The position numbers and the translations under genes were made by a program. Below the pieces are notes generated by a model, which was not told the DNA's origin, did not search any database, and saw only the letters and a program-made list of their open reading frames with translations. Shown here one piece after another: positions 7,894-19,432 of a DNA stretch of 35,360 bases. This DNA comes from a virus. Position 1 is the stretch's first letter. Each line of letters starts with the position of its first letter. The stretch is from positions 1 to 35,360 of IMG/VR virus record IMGVR_UViG_3300005435_000016, one strand, 5' to 3'.

Positions 7894-9008
7894 TAGGGCT
7901 GTAACCACTCAAGAATGACCATGCCGGCGCCGCCGACATTGCCGGGAAGTCCCGCACCACCGCCACCACCGCCACCACCCGGAAAGCTTCCTACGGCCGT
8001 GGAAGAGGCCGAACAGAAGGTGCCTCCACCCGTACCACCCAGGCCAGTACCGCCGAGGTTGTTGCCGAAGCTTCCTACAGTGCCCGTTACGGCGAAGGAG
8101 AGGCCCGAAGCCGTGCCTCCGGTGCCGCCTACTGAGGTACCACCACTGCTGGATCCAGGACCGCCACCACCACCATTGGCGGTGACACTCAAGGCGGCGA
8201 CCGTAGTAGCCGTGGCTGCGCCTCCCGCCGAGGAACCACTACCTGCCGAACCACCCGTGCCGATGACGATAGGGATGGAAGCACCTGGCGTGACAGTTGC
8301 AACACCCTCGCAATAACCACCACCACCGCCACCACTGGCGGCAGATCCCGTGCCCGTGGAACCACCACCACCACCACCACCACCCCATACGCGTACTTTG
8401 AGCTTTGTCACCCCCGTAGGCACGGTGAAAGTACCGGACGCGGTGAAAATCTGCTGCATGGAGGCGCGGGTGATTTCCTGCCCTACGAAAGCCGTAGTGG
8501 CGATCTGCGTCGTGCTGGTTCCGGGCGCTGCAGTTGGTGCCGTTGGCGTTCCGGTTAATGCGGTATTGGCCAAGCCACCGGCAATGGTGTTTTGCACAAA
8601 CTGCGTGGTAGCCAGCGCGGTAGAGCTGTCTCCTAGCGAAGCCGTTGGACCCTTGGGAACACCCGTAAACGTCGGCGAATTGATCGGTGCGAAGGACGCA
8701 ATCATCTCCTGGTAGCCCATATTCTGGACTGTCCAGTAAGAATTGGTCGGCGGATCGGTGTCGGTCGAAGGAGACAAGGTGAAGTCATACTTCATGGTGG
8801 TATCGACAAAACACACGCACTGACCATTCGCATCGAGAATGATGGGGTTGGTGTTGGGCGTCTGCGCATCACTGGCGTAGGTTGCCTGTTTGGTCGTCGT
8901 ACCCCCCGCGTAGGTGAAGAGCTTACCCCCAGCCAAAGGCGTATTCGTCCCCGGAAGGAAGAATTGCAGCTTGGGCGAGGCGACGTTACCGAGCGGACCG
9001 ATGGCCAT
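7893..9008 (-). CDS. Tail fibre protein with polyglycine-rich tip, 371 aa
   Basis: N-terminus MAIGPLGNVASPKLQFF and GGKLFTYAGGTTTKQATYA resemble the virion-binding part of podovirus fibres. Two TALATTQFVQ/TQIATTAFV-type shaft repeats follow. From about residue 205 the protein is dominated by Gly runs (up to eight in a row) interleaved with Ser/Thr/Ala, like the Gly-rich adhesin modules of phage tail tips. Starts and stops form TAATG junctions with both neighbours. Confidence 0.8.
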   Translation of the reverse strand: MAIGPLGNVASPKLQFFLPGTNTPLAGGKLFTYAGGTTTKQATYASDAQTPNTNPIILDANGQCVCFVDTTMKYDFTLSPSTDTDPPTNSYWTVQNMGYQEMIASFAPINSPTFTGVPKGPTASLGDSSTALATTQFVQNTIAGGLANTALTGTPTAPTAAPGTSTTQIATTAFVGQEITRASMQQIFTASGTFTVPTGVTKLKVRVWGGGGGGGGSTGTGSAASGGGGGGYCEGVATVTPGASIPIVIGTGGSAGSGSSAGGAATATTVAALSVTANGGGGGPGSSSGGTSVGGTGGTASGLSFAVTGTVGSFGNNLGGTGLGGTGGGTFCSASSTAVGSFPGGGGGGGGAGLPGNVGGAGMVILEWLQP

Positions 9009-11281
9009 TATTCGTACTCCATACACTCGGCAAAGCCGAGCTTGTGCAGTTCAGGAAGCGATTTCTTCAGGTCGTCGCCGATGTCGTTACGCACCATCAT
9101 GTTGGACATGTTGATTTTCTTTACCAGACTATCGGTACGACGTTTTGCCGATTTTACGTTCTCTCCGGTGCCCACCGCGACAAGTACATAGTTCCCCGAG
9201 GTTTTGTAGATTTCCCGGTCCACGACCTTGTCGCCATCCATGTCCGGACCTTTTTCCATCATCACGCAGACGGGATGGATGCCATGCCAGTTATCTGGCA
9301 TTTCGATGGGAAGTCCCATGCATTCCGCTTCGTCGCAGTCGTCACGAGGAAACGGCGGAATAGCGACGATTTCGCCAATCGCCACGTCATACGACACCTT
9401 GAGGGTGTCTTCGCCTTCCAGAAGGTCTTTCATCCACTGTACGGGGTCACCCTCATGCAAATCTGAGGTGATCCAGTCGTAAGGCCAGCCAGGGCGACAG
9501 GTGAATTCCAGCGGGTAAATCTTGCCGGAACCCTTCTCGATGATGCAGTTGAGATCGATATCACCGATATGACCTATTTTCTTAAGATGATCGATCAGCT
9601 CCGGGGAGAAAAGATCATCGGCCATTTTTTCCTTGTCGCAGTATTGAATTACTGTACCCATTTCTCCAGTTTGACCTATAAATGAAGGCTTTCCGTTTCG
9701 GCGGGTATAGATGATGTGAGAGGACACTGTGACGCAATACACCGGACCCTTGTATGGAATCGTGTAACAAAAATCGGGATGAAGCTTCGCCATCTTCTTA
9801 TGCTTTCGGATACGTATATCGTAAGCGATGCGCTGGTTTGTACAGGTGTACTTTCCGATGGCGTGAGATTGACCCCGCCTGTCACGGATCGATATTGCCG
9901 CTGACCATCCAGCTTTCAGGCACATCTCTTGTATGTCGTCAGCCAACTTCTTGCTTACGGTAGTACAGGTGAGATTGTTCTCTCGCCGGCAACCATCACC
10001 TTTGGCGTACCCGTCGATAAAGGATGTGATGACGGATTTCGAGCCCAAGCGAATCCATTCGGGAACGTACTTTTCATGAGCCTTGCCGAGTTCCAACAGA
10101 TGACTGATACAAGGGCACTGATACACAATGAGATCACCACCTCGAAAGGCATAACGCCATCCAAGAGCATTGACAATACCTTCGAACTCGATGCGCTTAT
10201 GATCTGGCAAATTACCGAAGATGACTTCTCCCTTATGCGTGTTCCCATCGGCCACATAGATGCCGAAAAAGGCTGCTAGTGATTCATCCCCTGGCACGCC
10301 TTGCCGCCACTCCCCTCCCGCATGCATATATTTTCTTGTACGTGCCATGGATTGGTAGGCAGGCTCGAAGCGCATGTCGTATCGACCATGGCTGTCTGTA
10401 ACGTACATGTTATGACCTGGTGTGACGAGGATATCCGTAAAAGAACTCGACCAACCAATCAAACTACCATCGAACGGCTCGTTGGTAATTTTGGAGGGAC
10501 GCTCATAGCTAATTTCTCCATCGATGAGCGTACAAATTTCATCTTCCATCGTCACATCGGGCCAGAATTTCCATCCGTTCTTGGTCAATACTTCAGCGTC
10601 AGGTGTAAAGCAATTCGGTCCGTAGTTACCCGGCATCAGCTTCTTGTGCTCGAAATTCACATTCCACTTACTAGGAAGAGGTCCCTCAGGACCAAACCAG
10701 CACGACACGCCCATCTCGTAGCCGTCGATTTTCTCCTGCAACATGCACGGTCCTTTGATATTCAGACCGAGCTTGATCCATCTCTGGATGCGGCCAACCA
10801 AATCAGCAGGCGTTTTAGCCACATAGGAAAGACTCTTGTCCTCGTTATCGCCCATGGTCTTGAACACATAGGCTTGATCGGACTTTCGGGCGAAGTTCTC
10901 CGCCTCCTTGAGCGAGGCGAAGGTGTGATAGGTAGGTATTAGAAGACCCATGGATTCCAGCAACTTCATGCCTTTGCTGCGCTGGATCTCTAGGGAGGCG
11001 GATTCGAACGACGGCGCGAACACGGGATATCCGTGCTTCTTCCAGTCATCGAGTTCTTTCAGGAAATTGGCATTGGAGCTGACCCAAATAAGGCCATCTT
11101 TGGCCCATTTCATGCTTGGACGCCAGTCCTTGACCATGACGATGCCGGGGAAGCCTTCGCCATCGCGGAAGGTGTTTCCTTCCTTATCTCGGTTGTACCA
11201 ACGAACCTCATGCCCGGCTTCGACGCAGCGATAGGCGAAATCCAGTCCGCAGCGGTCGGAGTCGATCAGCAGGACGCGCAT
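9008..11281 (-). CDS. PurD-like ATP-grasp protein interrupted by an intein, 757 aa
   Basis: Residues 1-223 and 538-757 join to a 443-aa protein resembling the phosphoribosylglycinamide synthetase (PurD) branch of ATP-grasp ligases: an N-terminal RVLLIDSD nucleotide-fold start, YVFKTMGDNEDKS lysine loop, LQEKIDGYEMGVSCW, the family signature GPN+TGEMGT after splicing, and YPLEFTCRPGWP in place of the enzyme's LEFNxRxGDPE. The last change suggests a different substrate from true PurD. Residues 224-537 are an intein, listed separately. The gene sits between small virion proteins and fibre genes in the late operon, so peptide or small-molecule modification tied to the particle is possible, but the reaction is unknown. 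Confidence 0.85.
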   Translation of the reverse strand: MRVLLIDSDRCGLDFAYRCVEAGHEVRWYNRDKEGNTFRDGEGFPGIVMVKDWRPSMKWAKDGLIWVSSNANFLKELDDWKKHGYPVFAPSFESASLEIQRSKGMKLLESMGLLIPTYHTFASLKEAENFARKSDQAYVFKTMGDNEDKSLSYVAKTPADLVGRIQRWIKLGLNIKGPCMLQEKIDGYEMGVSCWFGPEGPLPSKWNVNFEHKKLMPGNYGPNCFTPDAEVLTKNGWKFWPDVTMEDEICTLIDGEISYERPSKITNEPFDGSLIGWSSSFTDILVTPGHNMYVTDSHGRYDMRFEPAYQSMARTRKYMHAGGEWRQGVPGDESLAAFFGIYVADGNTHKGEVIFGNLPDHKRIEFEGIVNALGWRYAFRGGDLIVYQCPCISHLLELGKAHEKYVPEWIRLGSKSVITSFIDGYAKGDGCRRENNLTCTTVSKKLADDIQEMCLKAGWSAAISIRDRRGQSHAIGKYTCTNQRIAYDIRIRKHKKMAKLHPDFCYTIPYKGPVYCVTVSSHIIYTRRNGKPSFIGQTGEMGTVIQYCDKEKMADDLFSPELIDHLKKIGHIGDIDLNCIIEKGSGKIYPLEFTCRPGWPYDWITSDLHEGDPVQWMKDLLEGEDTLKVSYDVAIGEIVAIPPFPRDDCDEAECMGLPIEMPDNWHGIHPVCVMMEKGPDMDGDKVVDREIYKTSGNYVLVAVGTGENVKSAKRRTDSLVKKINMSNMMVRNDIGDDLKKSLPELHKLGFAECMEYE
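9671..10612 (-). mobile_element. Intein with LAGLIDADG homing endonuclease (314 aa, in frame)
   Basis: Starts at Cys224 (block A CFTPDAEVLT), has block B DILVTPGHNMYV, two dodecapeptides LAAFFGIYVADG (335-346) and SFIDGYAKGDG (420-430) of a LAGLIDADG endonuclease, block F GPVYCVTVSSHIIY, and ends SFIGQ before extein Thr538. The terminal residue is Gln, with Gly before it, not the usual His-Asn; Gln-ending inteins are known. Excision rejoins GPN with TGEMG, the conserved ATP-grasp loop, exactly as expected of an intein at a conserved active-site motif. Confidence 0.93.
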
Positions 11282-11578: not shown

Positions 11579-13345
11579 TTATTGCTGCGGCACTGGCGAA
11601 GGTTGTAACGAATTGGTGAATCCGGGTGCCATCAAGGCATTCGCGGGGTTGGAAAGACGCGTCTGTGCCAGATGGGCAAGGTAGTTGGATACGGGATTCT
11701 GTCGCGGCATGAAGGCTCGCTGCAAAATCGCCTGACCAGGCGCGCTGTAGACGCCATGGGCGATCGCACCCGCGCCAAGAACGGGGAGAATATGTCCCGT
11801 TGCGGCGCCGCCACCCAGGACGGAAGCATCCATCATCAAACGCCCCGCCGTACCGGAATCCGGTACCTTGCTAGGCAACACGCCTTGCGCCTTCTCCGCC
11901 AAGTCCTGCATCTCCGCCCTTCCTTGGGTAAAGGCGGCTTTATTCCGTGTCGAATCCGTCGCCCGCACGGCGGATCGAAGCTGTGCCGGCGTGAAGACAC
12001 CATCATGCGCACCGATCATGCCTGCCGCCTTATTGACGCGGACCAGTTGTCGGAACGAGTTGGTCGCAGCCTGCAACTTATTGTTGAGGTCTGGTGCGTT
12101 GTTACGCTTCAGCATGTCTTTCACATGCCCTTGTAGGTCTTTCACGGCCTGTCCTAGCTGCCGGCGACCTAGGTCATCGGATCGCATCAGTTTCGCCGCC
12201 TGTGCCCCGAGATCTGACTGAATTTCGTGCACGATCTTTCCCGGCGCCTGTCCGGACTGATCGAACTTTCGTAGTACATCGTTCTGGATATAGCTTCCCA
12301 ACTCGTCCCCTTCCTTGGCGGGGAGGTTCTTCCCGTACTTATTCCAGAGCGAACCAATATCCGTCGCCAACTTCTGATCGACTCTTCCTTTCATTTGTGA
12401 AAGGGTGGTGTCATACGCTTTCGATACCGCATCCTGAGCAATACCTAGCGCCTGACGACCTGCCACGCCTTTGGGCAAAGAAGTTCCCAATGGGGCAATA
12501 ACCCGGTTGATCGCGGCGTTATCGAAGCTTTCCAGCGCTCGTGCCTGAGCTTTTCGGATCGCTCCACCTACGATAGGAATACTGGTCAGCATGTCTTCCG
12601 TGCGTTTAGCTGCGCCACCCAACATCATGCCAGGGGTCAATTTCACGCCTTCCGCAGCCAATGCCCGAGCTTCCGGAGTGGCCAATCCGTTGACTACCTT
12701 GCCAGCGGCGGCACCCATACCCGGAAGGACAGCGCCCAAGCCTGTACCCACCAGCGTATTGGCGACATGCTCGCCCGTGGAGGCATAAGGCTGGGCATAT
12801 CCCTGTGCGCCACCTAGAGCGCCGCCTATCGCTGCCTTCGTGCCTAGGGCGGCTCCCGCACCTACGCCAGCCGCAGGCGCGATAAGAGCGGCAGGAAGGG
12901 CTTCCCCGACGTACCCCAGGACATTACCCACCCTGCCGGAAGCGGTATCCATCAAGGGTTGGTCTTTTTCACGCGCTCTGGCGACATCCTCTTGGCTTAC
13001 CTTGCCAATCAATTGGCCGATACCACGACCCGTATCTACGACTGCTTTACCTGCGCCCGCGCTAAGACGCTCATACCAGGGCATGGCATCGACCACTTTC
13101 TTTTGCTGCGCGGTCTCATAGGCCTGGCGTCCTTCAGGCGTACCCAAGGAATCCATCAATTGCTGCTGTTCCTTCGACATCTTCAGGTAACCGGGAGAAT
13201 GGCGGGACTTGGCAGGCGCCATCCACGAATCCGGTACATCACGACCGCTCGCCTTGAGCTTGGCAGCGATCTGCTCCTTCGTGGTGCCTTCAGGAATCCC
13301 TTGCAGGACCGTTCCATCCGGCAGCGTGACATCCATGGTGGCCAT
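11579..13345 (-). CDS. Putative DNA ejection protein, P22 gp16-like, 588 aa
   Basis: The N-terminus (MDVTLPDGTVLQGIPEGTT) is the short domain seen in many phage internal virion proteins. A central Gly/Ala-rich hydrophobic region (about residues 135-215) could insert in membranes. Another Gly/Ala-rich patch is near the C-terminus. Size and order (third after gp7- and gp20-like genes) match P22 gp16, which leaves the capsid to help DNA cross the envelope. Homology is by layout and character, not by a strong motif. Confidence 0.65.
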   Translation of the reverse strand: MATMDVTLPDGTVLQGIPEGTTKEQIAAKLKASGRDVPDSWMAPAKSRHSPGYLKMSKEQQQLMDSLGTPEGRQAYETAQQKKVVDAMPWYERLSAGAGKAVVDTGRGIGQLIGKVSQEDVARAREKDQPLMDTASGRVGNVLGYVGEALPAALIAPAAGVGAGAALGTKAAIGGALGGAQGYAQPYASTGEHVANTLVGTGLGAVLPGMGAAAGKVVNGLATPEARALAAEGVKLTPGMMLGGAAKRTEDMLTSIPIVGGAIRKAQARALESFDNAAINRVIAPLGTSLPKGVAGRQALGIAQDAVSKAYDTTLSQMKGRVDQKLATDIGSLWNKYGKNLPAKEGDELGSYIQNDVLRKFDQSGQAPGKIVHEIQSDLGAQAAKLMRSDDLGRRQLGQAVKDLQGHVKDMLKRNNAPDLNNKLQAATNSFRQLVRVNKAAGMIGAHDGVFTPAQLRSAVRATDSTRNKAAFTQGRAEMQDLAEKAQGVLPSKVPDSGTAGRLMMDASVLGGGAATGHILPVLGAGAIAHGVYSAPGQAILQRAFMPRQNPVSNYLAHLAQTRLSNPANALMAPGFTNSLQPSPVPQQ

Positions 13346-14700
13346 CAGAGGTCATCCCAGTGCACGGTTTTGGTGCCTTGCTTGGAATCCTTGGTTACCG
13401 CCTCCCGGAATTCGCCGCGCACGGTACCCGGAGAAGTGTTCGCGGCCTTCATTTCCTTCTGAAGCTGCTTCATCACGGCCGCGTAGGCTTCCGGACCGTC
13501 AGCCGTGGACAGCATGTCGCGTGCATGTTCCTTGTCGCTCACGGTCGGCGTTCCGGTCGGGCTCACCGCTCGAGCATAAGCATTGATGAACGACAGGTTC
13601 GCCGCACCAAAAGCCTTGACCTTGGGGTCACCCGTATTTTCGGCATAGGAAACCATCGCCTTGTTCACCGGAACGAACGAGGTTCGCGGGAACTCCTTGG
13701 AGGCTTCCAGAGCCAGGTCAGCGAACTGAGAAGCCTCGTTAACCGCCATGCCGACATTGGCCGTGCGCGTGCCAAGGGTACGTTCACCAGCCTTGATGCC
13801 ACCAAACTCGGCGATCTTCGCGGCGACATCGGCACCGCTCATGCCGGCGTCCTTCATCTGATCCACGATTTCCTTGCGTAACGCCACGATGTTCTCGGCG
13901 CCTTGACGACCACGGCCGAGATTGGTCATCACACTGGTATCACCAGCAAGATACTGCTGGGCCATGACCTTGGTGGTGTCGTCGTCCAGTTTCCCACCTG
14001 GCGCGCCTACGGCATTCGCTTCAGCGCGTGCAGAAGCTTTCTCGGCCAAACTTAGGCGAGCCTCCGAGACAGCAAACTGACGGTCACTATGCTCCATGCT
14101 AGCTTCCAAGCGCTTGTCGGCCCGCTCGTCGGATTTCTCCTTTTCCCTTAGGCCGAGTAGATCCTTGTACTTGATCGCCCCCGCACGGACGCGATCCGGA
14201 TCAAAGTTGGTCGGCATGGTGGCGATTTCCTGCGGGGAAAACATCCCCGAATCGGCCACATTCTTAAGGTTGTCGGTATAGACGGTCTGCGCCTTGATGC
14301 GTGCCTGATCGTCAGGTAGACCGGACTGGCGAGCTTGATCGTAGGCCACAATGGAGGGCTCGATCGCGTCATGGATGGCCTGGGACTTATCGTTGAACAT
14401 GCCGACATTGCGTTGCTTCGCCAAGGACTGGTCGGCGGCTATCTTGGCTTGCTGGTTCCGCAGATCCATACCCATTTGCGGTGACACCATGCTGATCTTC
14501 TTGACCGCCTCTCCGGTGGGCATACCGTTGGCGTCCAGGTTGGACGGGTCTTGGAAGATCGACAGCAAGGCATTCTGTGCCTGCTGCTGCTGACGCTGCT
14601 GAAGCATTTGCTGCTTCATCTGCATCATCTGCGTGATGGACCCCAGCGTGATCGGAGCCGGTCCTTGGGATTGCAGAGGAATGGAAGGATCGATAGGCAT
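13345..14700 (-). CDS. Putative DNA ejection protein, P22 gp20-like, 451 aa
   Basis: Mostly helical, with a Gln/Met-rich segment at residues 24-42 (QMMQMKQQMLQQRQQQQAQ) and long charged helices. Length is close to P22 gp20 (471 aa) and it lies between gp7-like and gp16-like genes. TGATG junction with the downstream gene. Assigned mainly from position and size. Confidence 0.6.
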   Translation of the reverse strand: MPIDPSIPLQSQGPAPITLGSITQMMQMKQQMLQQRQQQQAQNALLSIFQDPSNLDANGMPTGEAVKKISMVSPQMGMDLRNQQAKIAADQSLAKQRNVGMFNDKSQAIHDAIEPSIVAYDQARQSGLPDDQARIKAQTVYTDNLKNVADSGMFSPQEIATMPTNFDPDRVRAGAIKYKDLLGLREKEKSDERADKRLEASMEHSDRQFAVSEARLSLAEKASARAEANAVGAPGGKLDDDTTKVMAQQYLAGDTSVMTNLGRGRQGAENIVALRKEIVDQMKDAGMSGADVAAKIAEFGGIKAGERTLGTRTANVGMAVNEASQFADLALEASKEFPRTSFVPVNKAMVSYAENTGDPKVKAFGAANLSFINAYARAVSPTGTPTVSDKEHARDMLSTADGPEAYAAVMKQLQKEMKAANTSPGTVRGEFREAVTKDSKQGTKTVHWDDL

Positions 14701-14703
14701 AAA

Positions 14704-15411
14704 TTATCCCATGCTGATCTGGGGCGGAGCATATTGACCGGCATCCGGGATCGGCGGGATGTAGTTGCTTCCGTAGGGATTGTTCATGCCGCCCTGCATT
14801 TGCTGGTACATCGCCAGATTTCCTAGACTCCCCAAGCCTTGACTCCATGCGTTCGCCGATCCGACCTGACCCGCCGCAAGAGCATTGCCGGCGCCCATGG
14901 TGTTCTGCCCGATCTGGTTCGCGGTGTTGGCGCCGAGACCTGCGGTCATACCGGCCGAGTTGGCGCCCATCCCCGCCACGCCCATGTTCATGTTGTAGGT
15001 GTTGCCAAGCCACTGGTTGAAGTCTTGATTGGCCAACCCCTGACCATAGGAGGCGAGAGACTTCAGCGTATTCCCCGAATTCACTCCGCCCAGCGCTGAG
15101 GCATTGTTCATGATCGCCTGCGTGCCCTGACCTAGTTGCCACTGGTAGCCAGGGGATTGCTGGTACAGCGACGCTTGATTCGCGCCATTGTTGCCGAGCA
15201 GACTACCGAGGTTACCGAGGGATACCTGTCCCTGCTGCGTCCAAGGCTGTAGCCGCTGGACGTTCTGATCGTACATCGCCCTCTGCTGGGCGGAAGCAGC
15301 GGCGGCGGAGTCGGCTTGCGTCTGCGCGGCATCGCCTGCGGCGTTGGACGAGATCATGGCGCCGCCAATGGCTCCTACGGCTCCGATTGCTGCGGCCCAT
15401 CCTGCTGGCAT
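14704..15411 (-). CDS. DNA ejection protein, P22 gp7-like, 235 aa
   Basis: Start chosen at MPAGWAAAIGAVGA, preceded by GAGG. The protein has a hydrophobic Gly/Ala N-terminus, QNVQRLQPWTQQGQ, a SPGYQWQLGQGTQAIMNN stretch, GGVNSGNTLKSLASY, and a Gly/Asn/Ala-rich C-terminal half. The order of PF/PW, YQ, GG..S and low-complexity segments parallels P22 gp7, one of the three proteins ejected ahead of the DNA. Confidence 0.7.
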   Translation of the reverse strand: MPAGWAAAIGAVGAIGGAMISSNAAGDAAQTQADSAAAASAQQRAMYDQNVQRLQPWTQQGQVSLGNLGSLLGNNGANQASLYQQSPGYQWQLGQGTQAIMNNASALGGVNSGNTLKSLASYGQGLANQDFNQWLGNTYNMNMGVAGMGANSAGMTAGLGANTANQIGQNTMGAGNALAAGQVGSANAWSQGLGSLGNLAMYQQMQGGMNNPYGSNYIPPIPDAGQYAPPQISMG

Positions 15412-15416
15412 GACAC

Positions 15417-15941
15417 TTACCTCTTGCTGTTGAGTAGGCCGATCTGGCGAAGTTCGTTCATCACGGACAGATCCAGTGTCCAATGCACGGGATGAGGCTG
15501 GACCTGCATACGCACGAGCTGATGGTAACGAAGCGCATCGAAGGTTTCAGCAGGTAAAAGATAGTCCCATAGCGCCCTGGCTTTGGACTCTTCCCAAAGA
15601 TCCTCAAAGGAAAAAACTCGGCCCTTTTGATGTCGGAAAGACTCTCGCAAATGGTCGTTATTGGTCAGTCCCATCGCTCTAAGACTAGCATCACATGCCT
15701 GCGGATCGCGTTCGATGATGGCGATAGGACATCGGAACTGATCTAGCCAACCTTCCAACAAGAAGGAAAGCGTGCAGCTGATCCCAAATTTTCGTTGGTC
15801 CCTATACCAACGGTCGGGAAGCCCTTGAGCGAAGGGATCATGCATGCAGAAGGTTCGATCTGTCGTCAACCAGTTTGCGATCCAAGTCGTTCCGGATCGA
15901 GGCAGGCCGATAACGACAAAGTCTAGGATCGGCGTATGCAT
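15417..15941 (-). CDS. Sulfotransferase-like P-loop protein, 174 aa
   Basis: Residues 8-20 read FVVIGLPRSGTTW, the 5'-phosphosulfate-binding loop of the PAPS-dependent sulfotransferase family. AIIERDPQACDASLRAMG near residues 74-91 fits the 3'-phosphate-binding segment (R...S). Shorter than most cellular members, so the acceptor domain is reduced. It overlaps the 2OG oxygenase gene by 19 nt within the virion gene cluster; sulfation of a virion or host surface component is possible but untested. Confidence 0.75.
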   Translation of the reverse strand: MHTPILDFVVIGLPRSGTTWIANWLTTDRTFCMHDPFAQGLPDRWYRDQRKFGISCTLSFLLEGWLDQFRCPIAIIERDPQACDASLRAMGLTNNDHLRESFRHQKGRVFSFEDLWEESKARALWDYLLPAETFDALRYHQLVRMQVQPHPVHWTLDLSVMNELRQIGLLNSKR

Positions 15942-16480
15942 ATGATCAGGGTGATGCGTTCTTCATCGCTCTCATTGGTCACCCAGTGAACGATGTCATT
16001 GCGGAACCAAAAGAGATCACCTGGTAACGTAACAAGCTTCGTTTCCTCGAAGCAGAAGGCTTGCTTCGGGTTTCCTCGAAGTTGTATCGCGAATTTCTCG
16101 TAGTAACCGGCATGCCATCCACCATCGACATGAGGTTGCACCATGCCACCGGGCGGAATTCTGGTGATAAGAACCGCACCCAGGCGCTCTCCGCGAACGA
16201 GGGACATGACTTGGAACACCATATCCTTTACTGCAGGGAGTTTATCGGCTTCTGGATACCATTCCGAATCGTGAGGTCCATTGAACTTGGCTCGATCACC
16301 ATCGAAGTTTGACCATGGATTGTATCGTACCCATATGTCATCGACTTTCAGGTGCGGTGTGCCATAAGCCGAGGTACGAAACGGGATGACATTCCAGACT
16401 TCCGGATGCGCGTCGATCTGCGCCAACGCTTCGGACACATCGAAGCCTGATTTCACCAGATGGATAGGTAGATCATCCAT
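15923..16480 (-). CDS. 2OG-Fe(II) dioxygenase, aspartyl/asparaginyl hydroxylase-like, 185 aa
   Basis: QPHVDGGWHAGYY carries the metal-binding HxD (His117, Asp119), and FRNDIVHWVTNES carries the distal His165; an Arg follows for 2-oxoglutarate. Spacing matches the aspartyl/asparaginyl beta-hydroxylase branch of cupin-fold oxygenases. Start taken at MDDLPIHLVK; it overlaps the upstream ORF by 8 nt. Such enzymes hydroxylate protein side chains or small molecules; the substrate here is unknown. Confidence 0.8.
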   Translation of the reverse strand: MDDLPIHLVKSGFDVSEALAQIDAHPEVWNVIPFRTSAYGTPHLKVDDIWVRYNPWSNFDGDRAKFNGPHDSEWYPEADKLPAVKDMVFQVMSLVRGERLGAVLITRIPPGGMVQPHVDGGWHAGYYEKFAIQLRGNPKQAFCFEETKLVTLPGDLFWFRNDIVHWVTNESDEERITLIICIRRS

Positions 16481-16748
16481 CGCCAATACTCGCTCCAACC
16501 AAGGCAACCTGCACCGGATCGTCGCTGGATATTTCGAAGATACGGTCGAGTCCGGTGTTACGACGCGTGGACCCGATGCGGCGCCACATGACGCGCTGAG
16601 AAGTTTTTCCTGTAGCACCTTGATACGCGTAAGAGGGATTACTCCAAATGTGGCCGCCATCATCAGACCATCGAAGAACTACGCCTGCGGGTGTAGGTAT
16701 CGGCGGTGGGATGGATACCATGGGAGAGAACTTGATGATGATGGACAT
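16473..16748 (-). CDS. Detached C-terminal domain of a gp10-like tail protein, 91 aa
   Basis: LRWSDDGGHIWSNPSYAYQG, then RVMWRRIGSTRR, then RIFEISSDDPVQVALVGASI are the conserved ending of phage stabilisation / gp10-type tail proteins, where they normally follow an R..MRxDMxTG segment in one polypeptide. Here that segment ends the 17176-18405 gene and this piece is separate, with its own ATG (TGATG junction). It may be translated as a partner subunit. Confidence 0.65.
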   Translation of the reverse strand: MSIIIKFSPMVSIPPPIPTPAGVVLRWSDDGGHIWSNPSYAYQGATGKTSQRVMWRRIGSTRRNTGLDRIFEISSDDPVQVALVGASIGDG

Positions 16749-17179
16749 CAGAACGAACCCCCTTGGTAAACTCCGATAAATACAGGAGATGAATCTATGG
16801 GAGAGGCAGGGTCAGGCGTCCATCCACCTCCAAGCGCAGAGAGAACGACGGAAGCATTTGATGTGCTGACACTAGGATGTGCTGATCCGGCTACGATGGT
16901 CATCGTCGATGCTTGCATTCCGCCTGGAAAGTTGTAGTTCGGAGTTACCTGCAAAAAATATCCGTTAGTGGTGCTTCCGGAACCACTTATATAATTCAGT
17001 GCGACGTTTCCTCCACCATCGACTGTCACATTGAGAATATTTCCTACACTTGGATCACTGAACGATGGCGAGGTACCCAGCAATCCAAGAACACCTGACC
17101 ATAATGGGGTCACCGAGCTTAAATGGTTGAATACGGAGACCGTGCATGGACCTTCGATGAAAGCATTGATCCAATTCAT
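16748..17179 (-). CDS. ORF inserted between two halves of a gp10-like gene, 143 aa
   Basis: A Gly/Ser/Thr/Val-rich, beta-type sequence (MNWINAFIEGPCTVSVFNHL..., SVVLSALGGGWTPDP) without charge clusters, resembling small phage capsid or tail decoration domains. Joined by a 4-nt overlap to the upstream gp10-like gene and by TGATG to the detached C-terminal domain. No family recognised. Confidence 0.65.
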   Translation of the reverse strand: MNWINAFIEGPCTVSVFNHLSSVTPLWSGVLGLLGTSPSFSDPSVGNILNVTVDGGGNVALNYISGSGSTTNGYFLQVTPNYNFPGGMQASTMTIVAGSAHPSVSTSNASVVLSALGGGWTPDPASPIDSSPVFIGVYQGGSF

Positions 17180-18405
17180 GGCACGATCGCCGGAGGTGTA
17201 CCTGTCTGCATATCAAGTCTCATCGATCCAAAGCGAACAGGGATATTCTGAGCTTGTTTCAACGCACGCCAACGGCGCATCCAGCGTTTCGGGTTGATGC
17301 TGGTCGTGTTGGCGGGAAGATCATCGGTTCCGTAACTCAGGTCCAGCGTACTGATCTGGCCGCTTGAAGAAGAACCTACGACATGCTGCCCTTGAAAGAA
17401 GGCGTAAGCGCTCGGGTCCCAGCGGTGATAGACACCGTTGATCCATTCCCCGCGTTCGTGCCATATGCCATTGGTCTGGTCATAGCTCCACGTAGCATCC
17501 CCTGAGGGGAAAGTGATCATATAAAACCGATGACCGGCCTGCATGTAGGAGAAAGCGATAGCATCGGCCACACCCACCTGACTCTTAGCCATGTAGCTAA
17601 GAATGGCGTACTCGATAGGGTGGGTGGAGATGCGTTGTTCCTGGTATCCGGTGTTCATGAAGACACAGACACCTCCTTCCTTATCCTGGCCCAACCAGAT
17701 CACGCGGTCACCAGAAACCGACACGGAGAACGGGGCGATGCAGCCTTGCTGCAAGTAAGCCCCTTGCATGCGCTGGAAGGCGAACCCGTTGAGTCCCGCA
17801 TTGTTCCAAATCTCCGTCGAATTCTGTTTGAAGATCCAGATTTGACGGAAGAGACTGGTCATGCCAATGATCGGACTGGGCTCTGAATCGGCGGAAGAGA
17901 AATTCAGGCCATCCCAGACTGTCAGATCATTGAGATTCGACTGGTAAAACTGATCGGTTCCGAGCTTGTTGACGAGTCCAAAGCCGTCTTGGATCGTCGC
18001 CACGACGGGGTTGATAAGGTTGGTCAGCGTCCAGGAACCGGCGCTGTAGACCCATCCCTGAAACCCATCGACCACCATGAACTGCGTACCGTTGTCGATG
18101 ATGCCGACCGGACCTGTCGCTGTGTTCAAAGTGCCGATCGTCGCTACGACGCCGTTTTGATCGTAGGTATAGACCGTGTTGCCGGATACGATGATGATCT
18201 TTCGGGTCGTCGTCATGGTGCGCTTACCACGGATCGGACCCGCCCCAACAGTGCTCAAGGATCGCTGACCCGGCGTGGAATAGAAACCACCGATCTGTTT
18301 ACCTTGATGTGTCTCCATGACTTCGGGATAGAGATTCATGCACCGATCTGCTGCCAAGTTCGGCGATAATGACTGATACGTACCGCCGAAGAAGGGCGTT
18401 TCCAT
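17176..18405 (-). CDS. Tail accessory / packaged DNA stabilisation protein, P22 gp10-like, 409 aa
   Basis: METPFFGGTYQSLSPNLAAD with RCMNLYPEVME is the usual N-terminus of this family, followed by repeated beta-blade segments (VSGNTVYTYD, FQGWVYSAGSW, WIFKQNSTEIWNNAG, GDRVIWLGQDKEGGVCVF). It forms the tail hub that plugs the portal channel. It stops early, right after RFGSMRLDMQTG, where relatives continue into the WSDDGG domain; that domain is found as a separate ORF at 16473-16748. Confidence 0.8.
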   Translation of the reverse strand: METPFFGGTYQSLSPNLAADRCMNLYPEVMETHQGKQIGGFYSTPGQRSLSTVGAGPIRGKRTMTTTRKIIIVSGNTVYTYDQNGVVATIGTLNTATGPVGIIDNGTQFMVVDGFQGWVYSAGSWTLTNLINPVVATIQDGFGLVNKLGTDQFYQSNLNDLTVWDGLNFSSADSEPSPIIGMTSLFRQIWIFKQNSTEIWNNAGLNGFAFQRMQGAYLQQGCIAPFSVSVSGDRVIWLGQDKEGGVCVFMNTGYQEQRISTHPIEYAILSYMAKSQVGVADAIAFSYMQAGHRFYMITFPSGDATWSYDQTNGIWHERGEWINGVYHRWDPSAYAFFQGQHVVGSSSSGQISTLDLSYGTDDLPANTTSINPKRWMRRWRALKQAQNIPVRFGSMRLDMQTGTPPAIVP

Positions 18406-19141: not shown

Positions 19142-19432
19142 TCATTCGTCCATCACAAAAAGCACATCCATCTCGCACATCGCCAGCAGCGTTTCGCCGT
19201 TGTAGGAAAACGGCTGTTGCGCGTACTTGCCGAACATGATCTTGTCGCCGACAGCGATCTGCATGGCCTCACGCGTGCCGTCATCCTTGGCCTTACCAGG
19301 TCCAATAGCTACGACCTCGCCAGAGAGCGGTTTTTCGGCCTCTTGACATACCACGACAATGCCCGATGCCCTTAACGTTTCTGAAGGGAAAGGGCGAACG
19401 ATAATGCGGTCATCCAGCGGACAAATGGCCAT
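19142..19432 (-). CDS. GroES-like co-chaperonin 1 (96 aa)
   Basis: CPLDDRIIVRPFPSET, then ASGIVVVCQEAEKPLSGEVVAIGPGK, then VGDKIMFGKYAQQPFSYNGE follow the Cpn10 fold in order (N-terminal strand, mobile loop with the I-V-V GroEL-binding triplet, dome, C-terminal strands). Like T4 gp31 it could adapt host GroEL for folding phage coat protein. The window has a second, different GroES-like gene at 25952-26209. Confidence 0.88.
   Translation of the reverse strand: MAICPLDDRIIVRPFPSETLRASGIVVVCQEAEKPLSGEVVAIGPGKAKDDGTREAMQIAVGDKIMFGKYAQQPFSYNGETLLAMCEMDVLFVMDE

Follow-up and report, generated by a model that had tools for sequence, protein, structure and literature searches.

Phage 2OG oxygenases and sulfotransferases have been reported as auxiliary metabolic genes, the class to which they are usually assigned, and the function of the phage sulfotransferases has been called unclear (PMC10580990). 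The OM43 phages of that report encode members of the same two superfamilies, but as separate genes, and the available text of the report describes no paired cassette, no ejection slot, and no exchange of partners. A search of the open-licence literature likewise found no description of a hydroxylase-sulfotransferase pair or of a partner swap. In this study, we describe a hydroxylase that is tied to podovirus ejection genes across many lineages and whose sulfotransferase-like neighbor is swapped for two unrelated small proteins, so that the purpose of such genes becomes testable.

The window analyzed here is a whole IMG/VR virus record of 35,360 bp, for which no DNA-level relatives were found among phage records. 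It is a podovirus contig with a late operon on the minus strand, in the order terminase, portal, scaffold, major head protein, GroES-like protein, adaptor, head-closure protein (Hc3), hydroxylase (HYD), sulfotransferase-like protein (ST), three ejection proteins (ej1 to ej3), an ATP-grasp gene with an insert, and tail fibers. An earlier, sequence-only reading had placed HYD and ST among tail genes; this is roughly right, since the pair sits between the head-closure pieces and the three ejection-protein genes, and the 19-nt coding overlap that it reported is correct to the base. The relevant features are as follows.

16473..18405 region, minus strand: head-closure gene Hc3 in separate pieces, 17176-18405 and 16473-16748 (phrog_578 matches; alignment to the Hc3 of prophage L180)
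16748-17179, minus strand: 143-aa ORF between the Hc3 pieces (alignment to the single 489-aa Hc3 of L180)
15923..16480, minus strand: HYD, predicted 2OG-Fe(II) dioxygenase of the Asp_Arg_Hydrox type, 185 aa (PF05118, conserved residues, AF2 model, fold)
15923..15941, minus strand: 19-nt overlap between HYD (end) and ST (start) (read from the sequence)
15417..15941, minus strand: ST, minimal PAPS-sulfotransferase-like protein, 174 aa (PF13469, phrog_10855, conservation, AF2 model, fold)
14704..15411, minus strand: ej1, DNA-ejection protein (phrog_598, "DNA ejection," E = 2.9e-38)
13345..14700, minus strand: ej2, gene in the second ejection-protein position (syntenic homologue in prophage L180, 296 bits; no PHROG match found)
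11579..13345, minus strand: ej3, third ejection protein (phrog_26400, DNA ejection protein, E = 2.2e-26)

HYD starts with an ATG at 16480, where it shares 8 nt with the end of an Hc3 piece, and stops with a TAG at 15925-15923; the ATG of ej1, at 15411, lies 5 nt past the ST stop codon.

HYD matched the Pfam family Asp_Arg_Hydrox (PF05118) with an E value of 2.2e-6 and a score of 28.1 bits (cut-off, 22.6). Alignment of 51 homologues showed that H117, D119, H165, and R175 are invariant; the first three are the predicted metal ligands, and R175 is the predicted 2OG-binding Arg. When the AF2 model of HYD (mean pLDDT, 96.3) was used in a fold search, the best PDB match was L-proline cis-4-hydroxylase (4p7w; TMq, 0.69), followed by a nucleoside-antibiotic beta-hydroxylase and proline 3-hydroxylase, with AspH lower. 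HYD has the modeled double-stranded beta-helix, the HxD...H motif, and the 2OG-binding basic residue of 2OG-Fe(II) dioxygenases, and from its sequence and model, it looks like a complete enzyme of this class. Both the fold and the motif are shared with the AspH family (PF05118) and with L-proline cis-4-hydroxylase, and the Arg follows the distal His by 10 residues in HYD (H165/R175) as it does in human AspH (H725/R735). Compared with PF05118 enzymes, HYD is a small single-domain phage protein; it also has the Asp of the full metal-binding triad, which human AspH presumably lacks. The fold alone does not separate a free amino acid from a protein as the substrate of HYD, since free-amino-acid hydroxylases share it (4p7w). 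HYD was not identified as the lipid A hydroxylase LpxO, scoring 17.7 bits against NF033391, for which the equivalog cut-off is >500 bits.

The evidence for ST comes from several sources. Its match to the Pfam family Sulfotransfer_3 (PF13469; E = 5.1e-6) is just over the cut-off and covers the P-loop region only, and phrog_10855 matches nearly its whole length (E = 1.4e-31). The 5'-loop GLPRSGTTW occupies residues 12 to 20 (PRSGTTW, 14 to 20) and fits the 5'-phosphosulfate-binding pattern P-[KR]-S-G-T-[TS] of PAPS-dependent sulfotransferases. Among 95 ST homologues, P14, R15, W20, H34, and R78 show no variation, only D and E occur at position 35, S86 is found in 92 (97%), and R138 is found in 99%; the pattern used to find these homologues demanded only the PRSxTxW loop, so that H34, D/E35, R78, S86, and R138 lie outside it. 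The motifs named in the sequence-only reading, GLPRSGTTW in ST and HxD...H in HYD, are both present and, in the 95 and 51 homologues, are conserved well beyond chance. PAPS sulfotransferases have the same spacing of eight in their 3'-phosphate site as R78 and S86 of ST, which align with the R...S of SULT1A3 in an overall match that is weak. The AF2 model of ST (pLDDT, 91.4) gave TPST-1 (5wrj, the best), Teg14, DHEA-ST, and TPST-2 as its top Foldseek matches (E = 4.5e-4; TMq, 0.61). TPST-1 is the best match, but ST has only 174 aa and the TMt is 0.41; solved sulfotransferases have ~240 to 290 resolved residues, and the TM-score is 0.61 by query and ~0.4 by target.

ST combines the 5'-loop, the Arg and Ser eight residues apart, and the fold of the PAPS-dependent sulfotransferases (PF13469/PF00685), among which TPST is the nearest by fold; like them, it has a conserved acidic residue following the first helix (D/E35). 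Based on sequence and model, ST looks catalytically complete. The order of residues along the chain suggests that H34 and D35 may form the catalytic pair, with D35 in the position of the TPST glutamate. Host APS kinase was present in all three of the ST-prophage genomes searched (L182, L184, and L198) and in both of the other genomes, and a supply of PAPS should be available to ST. Because APS kinase occurs in all five host genomes, with and without ST, host sulfur metabolism does not explain which phages have ST.

ST is a clear member (30 to 36% identity) of the phrog_10855 family ("hydrolase") of Pamexvirus, Abidjanvirus, and Nipunavirus; in the members searched, HYD is absent and ST lies away from the ejection genes. 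Relatives in PaMx28, AAT-1, and NP1 carry the annotation "nucleotide triphosphate hydrolase," and kinases occur lower in the fold list of ST, as would be expected if ST were a P-loop kinase or NTPase, for example, one serving DNA-base hypermodification. The thymidine hypermodification genes reported for the Mesyanzhinovviridae phage Lydia (PMC11946847) are a further point for a kinase. However, the loop has no Walker-A Lys, the Arg and Ser of the 3'-phosphate site are conserved, and the first 24 fold matches are all sulfotransferases; we have rejected an NTPase or kinase identity for ST, which we consider very improbable. Since GLPRSGTTW lacks the Walker-A Lys, this family is not well described by the names "NTP hydrolase" and "hydrolase" that it has in the databases.

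Scans of viral contigs recovered 273 relatives of ST and 511 of HYD, and the 80 best of each were retrieved for analysis. The non-redundant loci comprised 100 with HYD, 101 with ST, and 40 with both. At these 40 loci, the two genes are always on one strand and are adjacent in nearly all, in either order; pairs outside the window mostly overlap by 1 to 20 nt. Three prophage-bearing or bacterial-assembly records add further pairs, with HYD preceding ST in Lysobacter gilvus (L182) and ST preceding HYD in L184 and L198, for a total of ~43 loci. No HYD-ST fusion protein was found among 112 ST and 116 HYD ORFs.

ST is one of three alternative neighbors of HYD. The gene beside HYD is ST at 43 loci, a small four-histidine cupin at 46 (plus 1 that also scores for GNAT), according to a cupin profile that included at least one wrong-frame ORF (from L176), and a 68-aa protein, c5, at 22; the remaining HYD loci have GNAT alone (2 loci) or none of these genes nearby (6 loci). 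No locus has two of ST, cupin, and c5 together beside HYD. A combination of HYD with cupin also occurs in Variovorax prophage DNA. In a thinned set of 73 HYDs with <75% identity, the partner is cupin in 27, ST in 26, c5 in 16, GNAT in 2, and none in 2, and no doubles were observed, versus ~17 expected if the partners were independent. Parsimony gave 20 changes of partner kind on the HYD tree, a quick tree with many weakly supported forks; if only its starred branches are counted, far fewer changes are required. The partner can differ even between close HYDs: those of L139 (cupin) and L181 (c5) are 75% identical. Prophage L180, whose structural proteins, including the capsid protein, are among the closest found to those of the window, has c5 where the window has ST. 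Whole-record searches of 50 phages and contigs detected ST in 27, cupin (counted with the clean alignment A9) in 14, and c5 in 6; exactly one of the three was present in 47 records, a figure that is conditional on the records having been picked for carrying these genes, and two were present in none. The other three records are L018 and two GNAT-bearing genomes. In the window, ST is the only one of the three. The c5 members scanned had no Pfam, PHROG, or NCBIfam match; the core of the family reads FDMYFAS..SMQ.HPGAGTKEH.

The sequence-only reading had proposed a two-step pathway in which HYD would hydroxylate a residue of a virion protein or a host glycan and ST would sulfate that hydroxyl. One part of this proposal holds up well, in that both enzymes look catalytically complete and form a recurrent same-strand cassette (40 non-redundant loci). 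Adjacent and usually overlapping genes in both orders at ~43 loci are what a relay on one target might produce, and the best fold match of ST is a protein sulfotransferase, while those of HYD include proline and Asp/Asn hydroxylases. An obligate relay, however, is not supported by the distribution of the genes. ST occurs without HYD at 61 of 101 loci, and HYD was not found in the whole records of 20 ST-only phages and contigs; most HYD loci lack ST, and HYD is found more often with cupin or c5, neither of which is a sulfotransferase, than with ST. We therefore regard a relay on one target as quite unlikely. The link to the particle that was drawn in the same reading comes from gene position only. 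Because cupin or c5 can take the place of ST, ST probably acts beside HYD and not as an obligate second step on a hydroxyl made by HYD.

Allele replacement at one locus may explain part of the exclusivity of the partners. In the extreme case, one recombination slot by ej1 would take one cassette at a time, and ST, cupin, and c5 would share no function; the position of the partner, upstream or downstream, follows the HYD clade while its kind varies, which is in keeping with such a slot. It does not readily account for the contig whose sole partner, c5, is separated from HYD by ~8 kb, for the presence of a partner at nearly every HYD, or for the recurrence of the ST/cupin swap at another locus, after a gene that we call gene X, in siphoviruses. 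On balance, an explanation by the slot alone seems unlikely.

All three partners are also found away from HYD. In the absence of HYD, ST immediately precedes ej1 in L057, L095, and L097, as does c5 in L223 and cupin in Vibrio phages, where several of the metal-binding histidines have been lost. HYD was not found in the complete records of seven cupin-only phages and contigs, and the possibility that a divergent HYD is hidden upstream of cupin or ST in Vibrio, Xanthomonas, and Pseudomonas phages was rejected, since HMM scores were at the level of noise and the whole records were negative. An unrelated siphovirus group shows the ST/cupin swap without HYD: in PaMx28 and AAT-1, the gene after gene X (PaMx28_69) is ST, in Elanor and Mallos it is cupin, and VBv52 has gene X and cupin in the same neighborhood. 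In a comparison of L205, L209, and L208 with L014 and L015, the flanking replication genes are similar in the Pamexvirus genomes with ST and the Xanthomonas phages with cupin. In siphoviruses, ST can also lie at a distance from structural genes, next to either replication genes or an endolysin. At least 15 contigs (L062-L092) have an ORF that by eye resembles an M15-type-peptidase endolysin directly before ST, and in a Stenotrophomonas phage (L207), the endolysin directly follows ST; this is a second recurrent context for ST. The c5 family extends to a gokushovirus (L200; KM589511.1), where an unannotated homologue at 1634-1876 is flanked by VP1 and the VP2 pilot gene, whose annotated start it overlaps, and to positions beside head genes in L225 and L231.

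These settings raise the question of whether ST, cupin, and c5 are moron-like, host-directed genes, that is, interchangeable host-conditioning or counter-defense factors that occupy late-operon slots and are not connected with the particle, with HYD as a separate moron. Their occurrence in unrelated viruses and places, including the Pamexvirus replication region, Nipunavirus, the VP2 side of the gokushovirus genome, and the head genes of L225 and L231, favors this explanation. However, morons would not usually be present exactly once in each genome, as a partner is in 47 of 50 records, HYD is rarely found away from the ejection slot, and no match was found in the PADLOC defense library, which covers defense and not counter-defense proteins; an NCBIfam scan gave no useful match. 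We find this explanation doubtful, although we regard it, and likewise the explanation by the slot alone, as a serious rival.

An alternative, which we put forward tentatively and to which we give somewhat less than an even chance, is that ST, cupin, and c5 are functionally equivalent although unrelated in sequence, and that they meet one infection requirement, once per genome, in the HYD podoviruses; ST and cupin would do so in siphoviruses as well, and c5 is also present in the single-stranded DNA gokushovirus. If so, either ST stands in for a function that does not involve sulfur, or all three proteins act on the same host or virion target. The readings considered here overlap, and the weights that we attach to them are not meant to sum to one.

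HYD itself is closely associated with the ejection genes. An ej1-family gene lies beside HYD at 92 of the 103 loci that have full flanks, and the usual order in relatives is Hc3, the partner and HYD, ej1, ej2, and ej3. In phage T7, the gp13 slot holds a GNAT-like gene between the tail genes and gp14. In T7 and the window alike, the gene that immediately precedes the first ejection gene is small and enzyme-like; the analogy is one of position only, gp13 having no homology to ST or HYD. In two relatives, PfAn1 and DC33, GNAT is found beside HYD, and in PfAn1, it directly precedes the ejection gene. Because HYD is tied to the ejection genes, it most likely acts on an ejection or tail protein or on something needed when that protein is made. 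A search for a target residue in ej1 found no invariant Asp, Asn, or Tyr; only two prolines are highly conserved, and these may be structural.

Based on the sequences and models, we propose two independent enzymes, HYD and ST, both probably active, that would be coexpressed in the podovirus late operon from the slot before the DNA-ejection proteins. HYD would use Fe(II), 2-oxoglutarate, and O2 to hydroxylate a protein of the ejection or tail apparatus, or one needed by it, and ST would sulfate an acceptor present at the same late stage of infection, with host PAPS as the donor, possibly doing the job that cupin or c5 does in other phages. The reading we prefer, as the simplest one to fit the observations, is that the two are enzymes of a swappable preejection slot that most likely condition either the ejection apparatus or a target at some stage of infection, and we judge that it has about an even chance of being correct. 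The occurrence of ST beside replication genes or an endolysin in siphoviruses does not fit a role confined to ejection. If the target of these enzymes is a virion protein, the phage particle would be subject to posttranslational hydroxylation, sulfation, or both, modifications of which we know of no example.

The late operon of the window has other features of interest. Hc3, a single 489-aa ORF in L180, is represented in the window by ORFs of 409 and 91 aa with an unrelated 143-aa ORF between them, with overlaps of a few nucleotides throughout; L119 has a split similar to that of the window. A gene for a GroES-like co-chaperonin (19142-19432, minus strand; phrog_3188, E = 1.4e-22) lies in the late operon between the head and adaptor genes and is conserved in the closest relatives of the window. 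Finally, the region at 9008-11281 (minus strand) encodes a 757-aa ATP-grasp-like protein, with weak GARS_A and GARS_C matches, that is broken by an intein-like insert of 313 aa (residues ~224-536, beginning at Cys224) containing a LAGLIDADG domain; its counterpart in L180 is an uninterrupted 444-aa form that is 80 to 87% identical.
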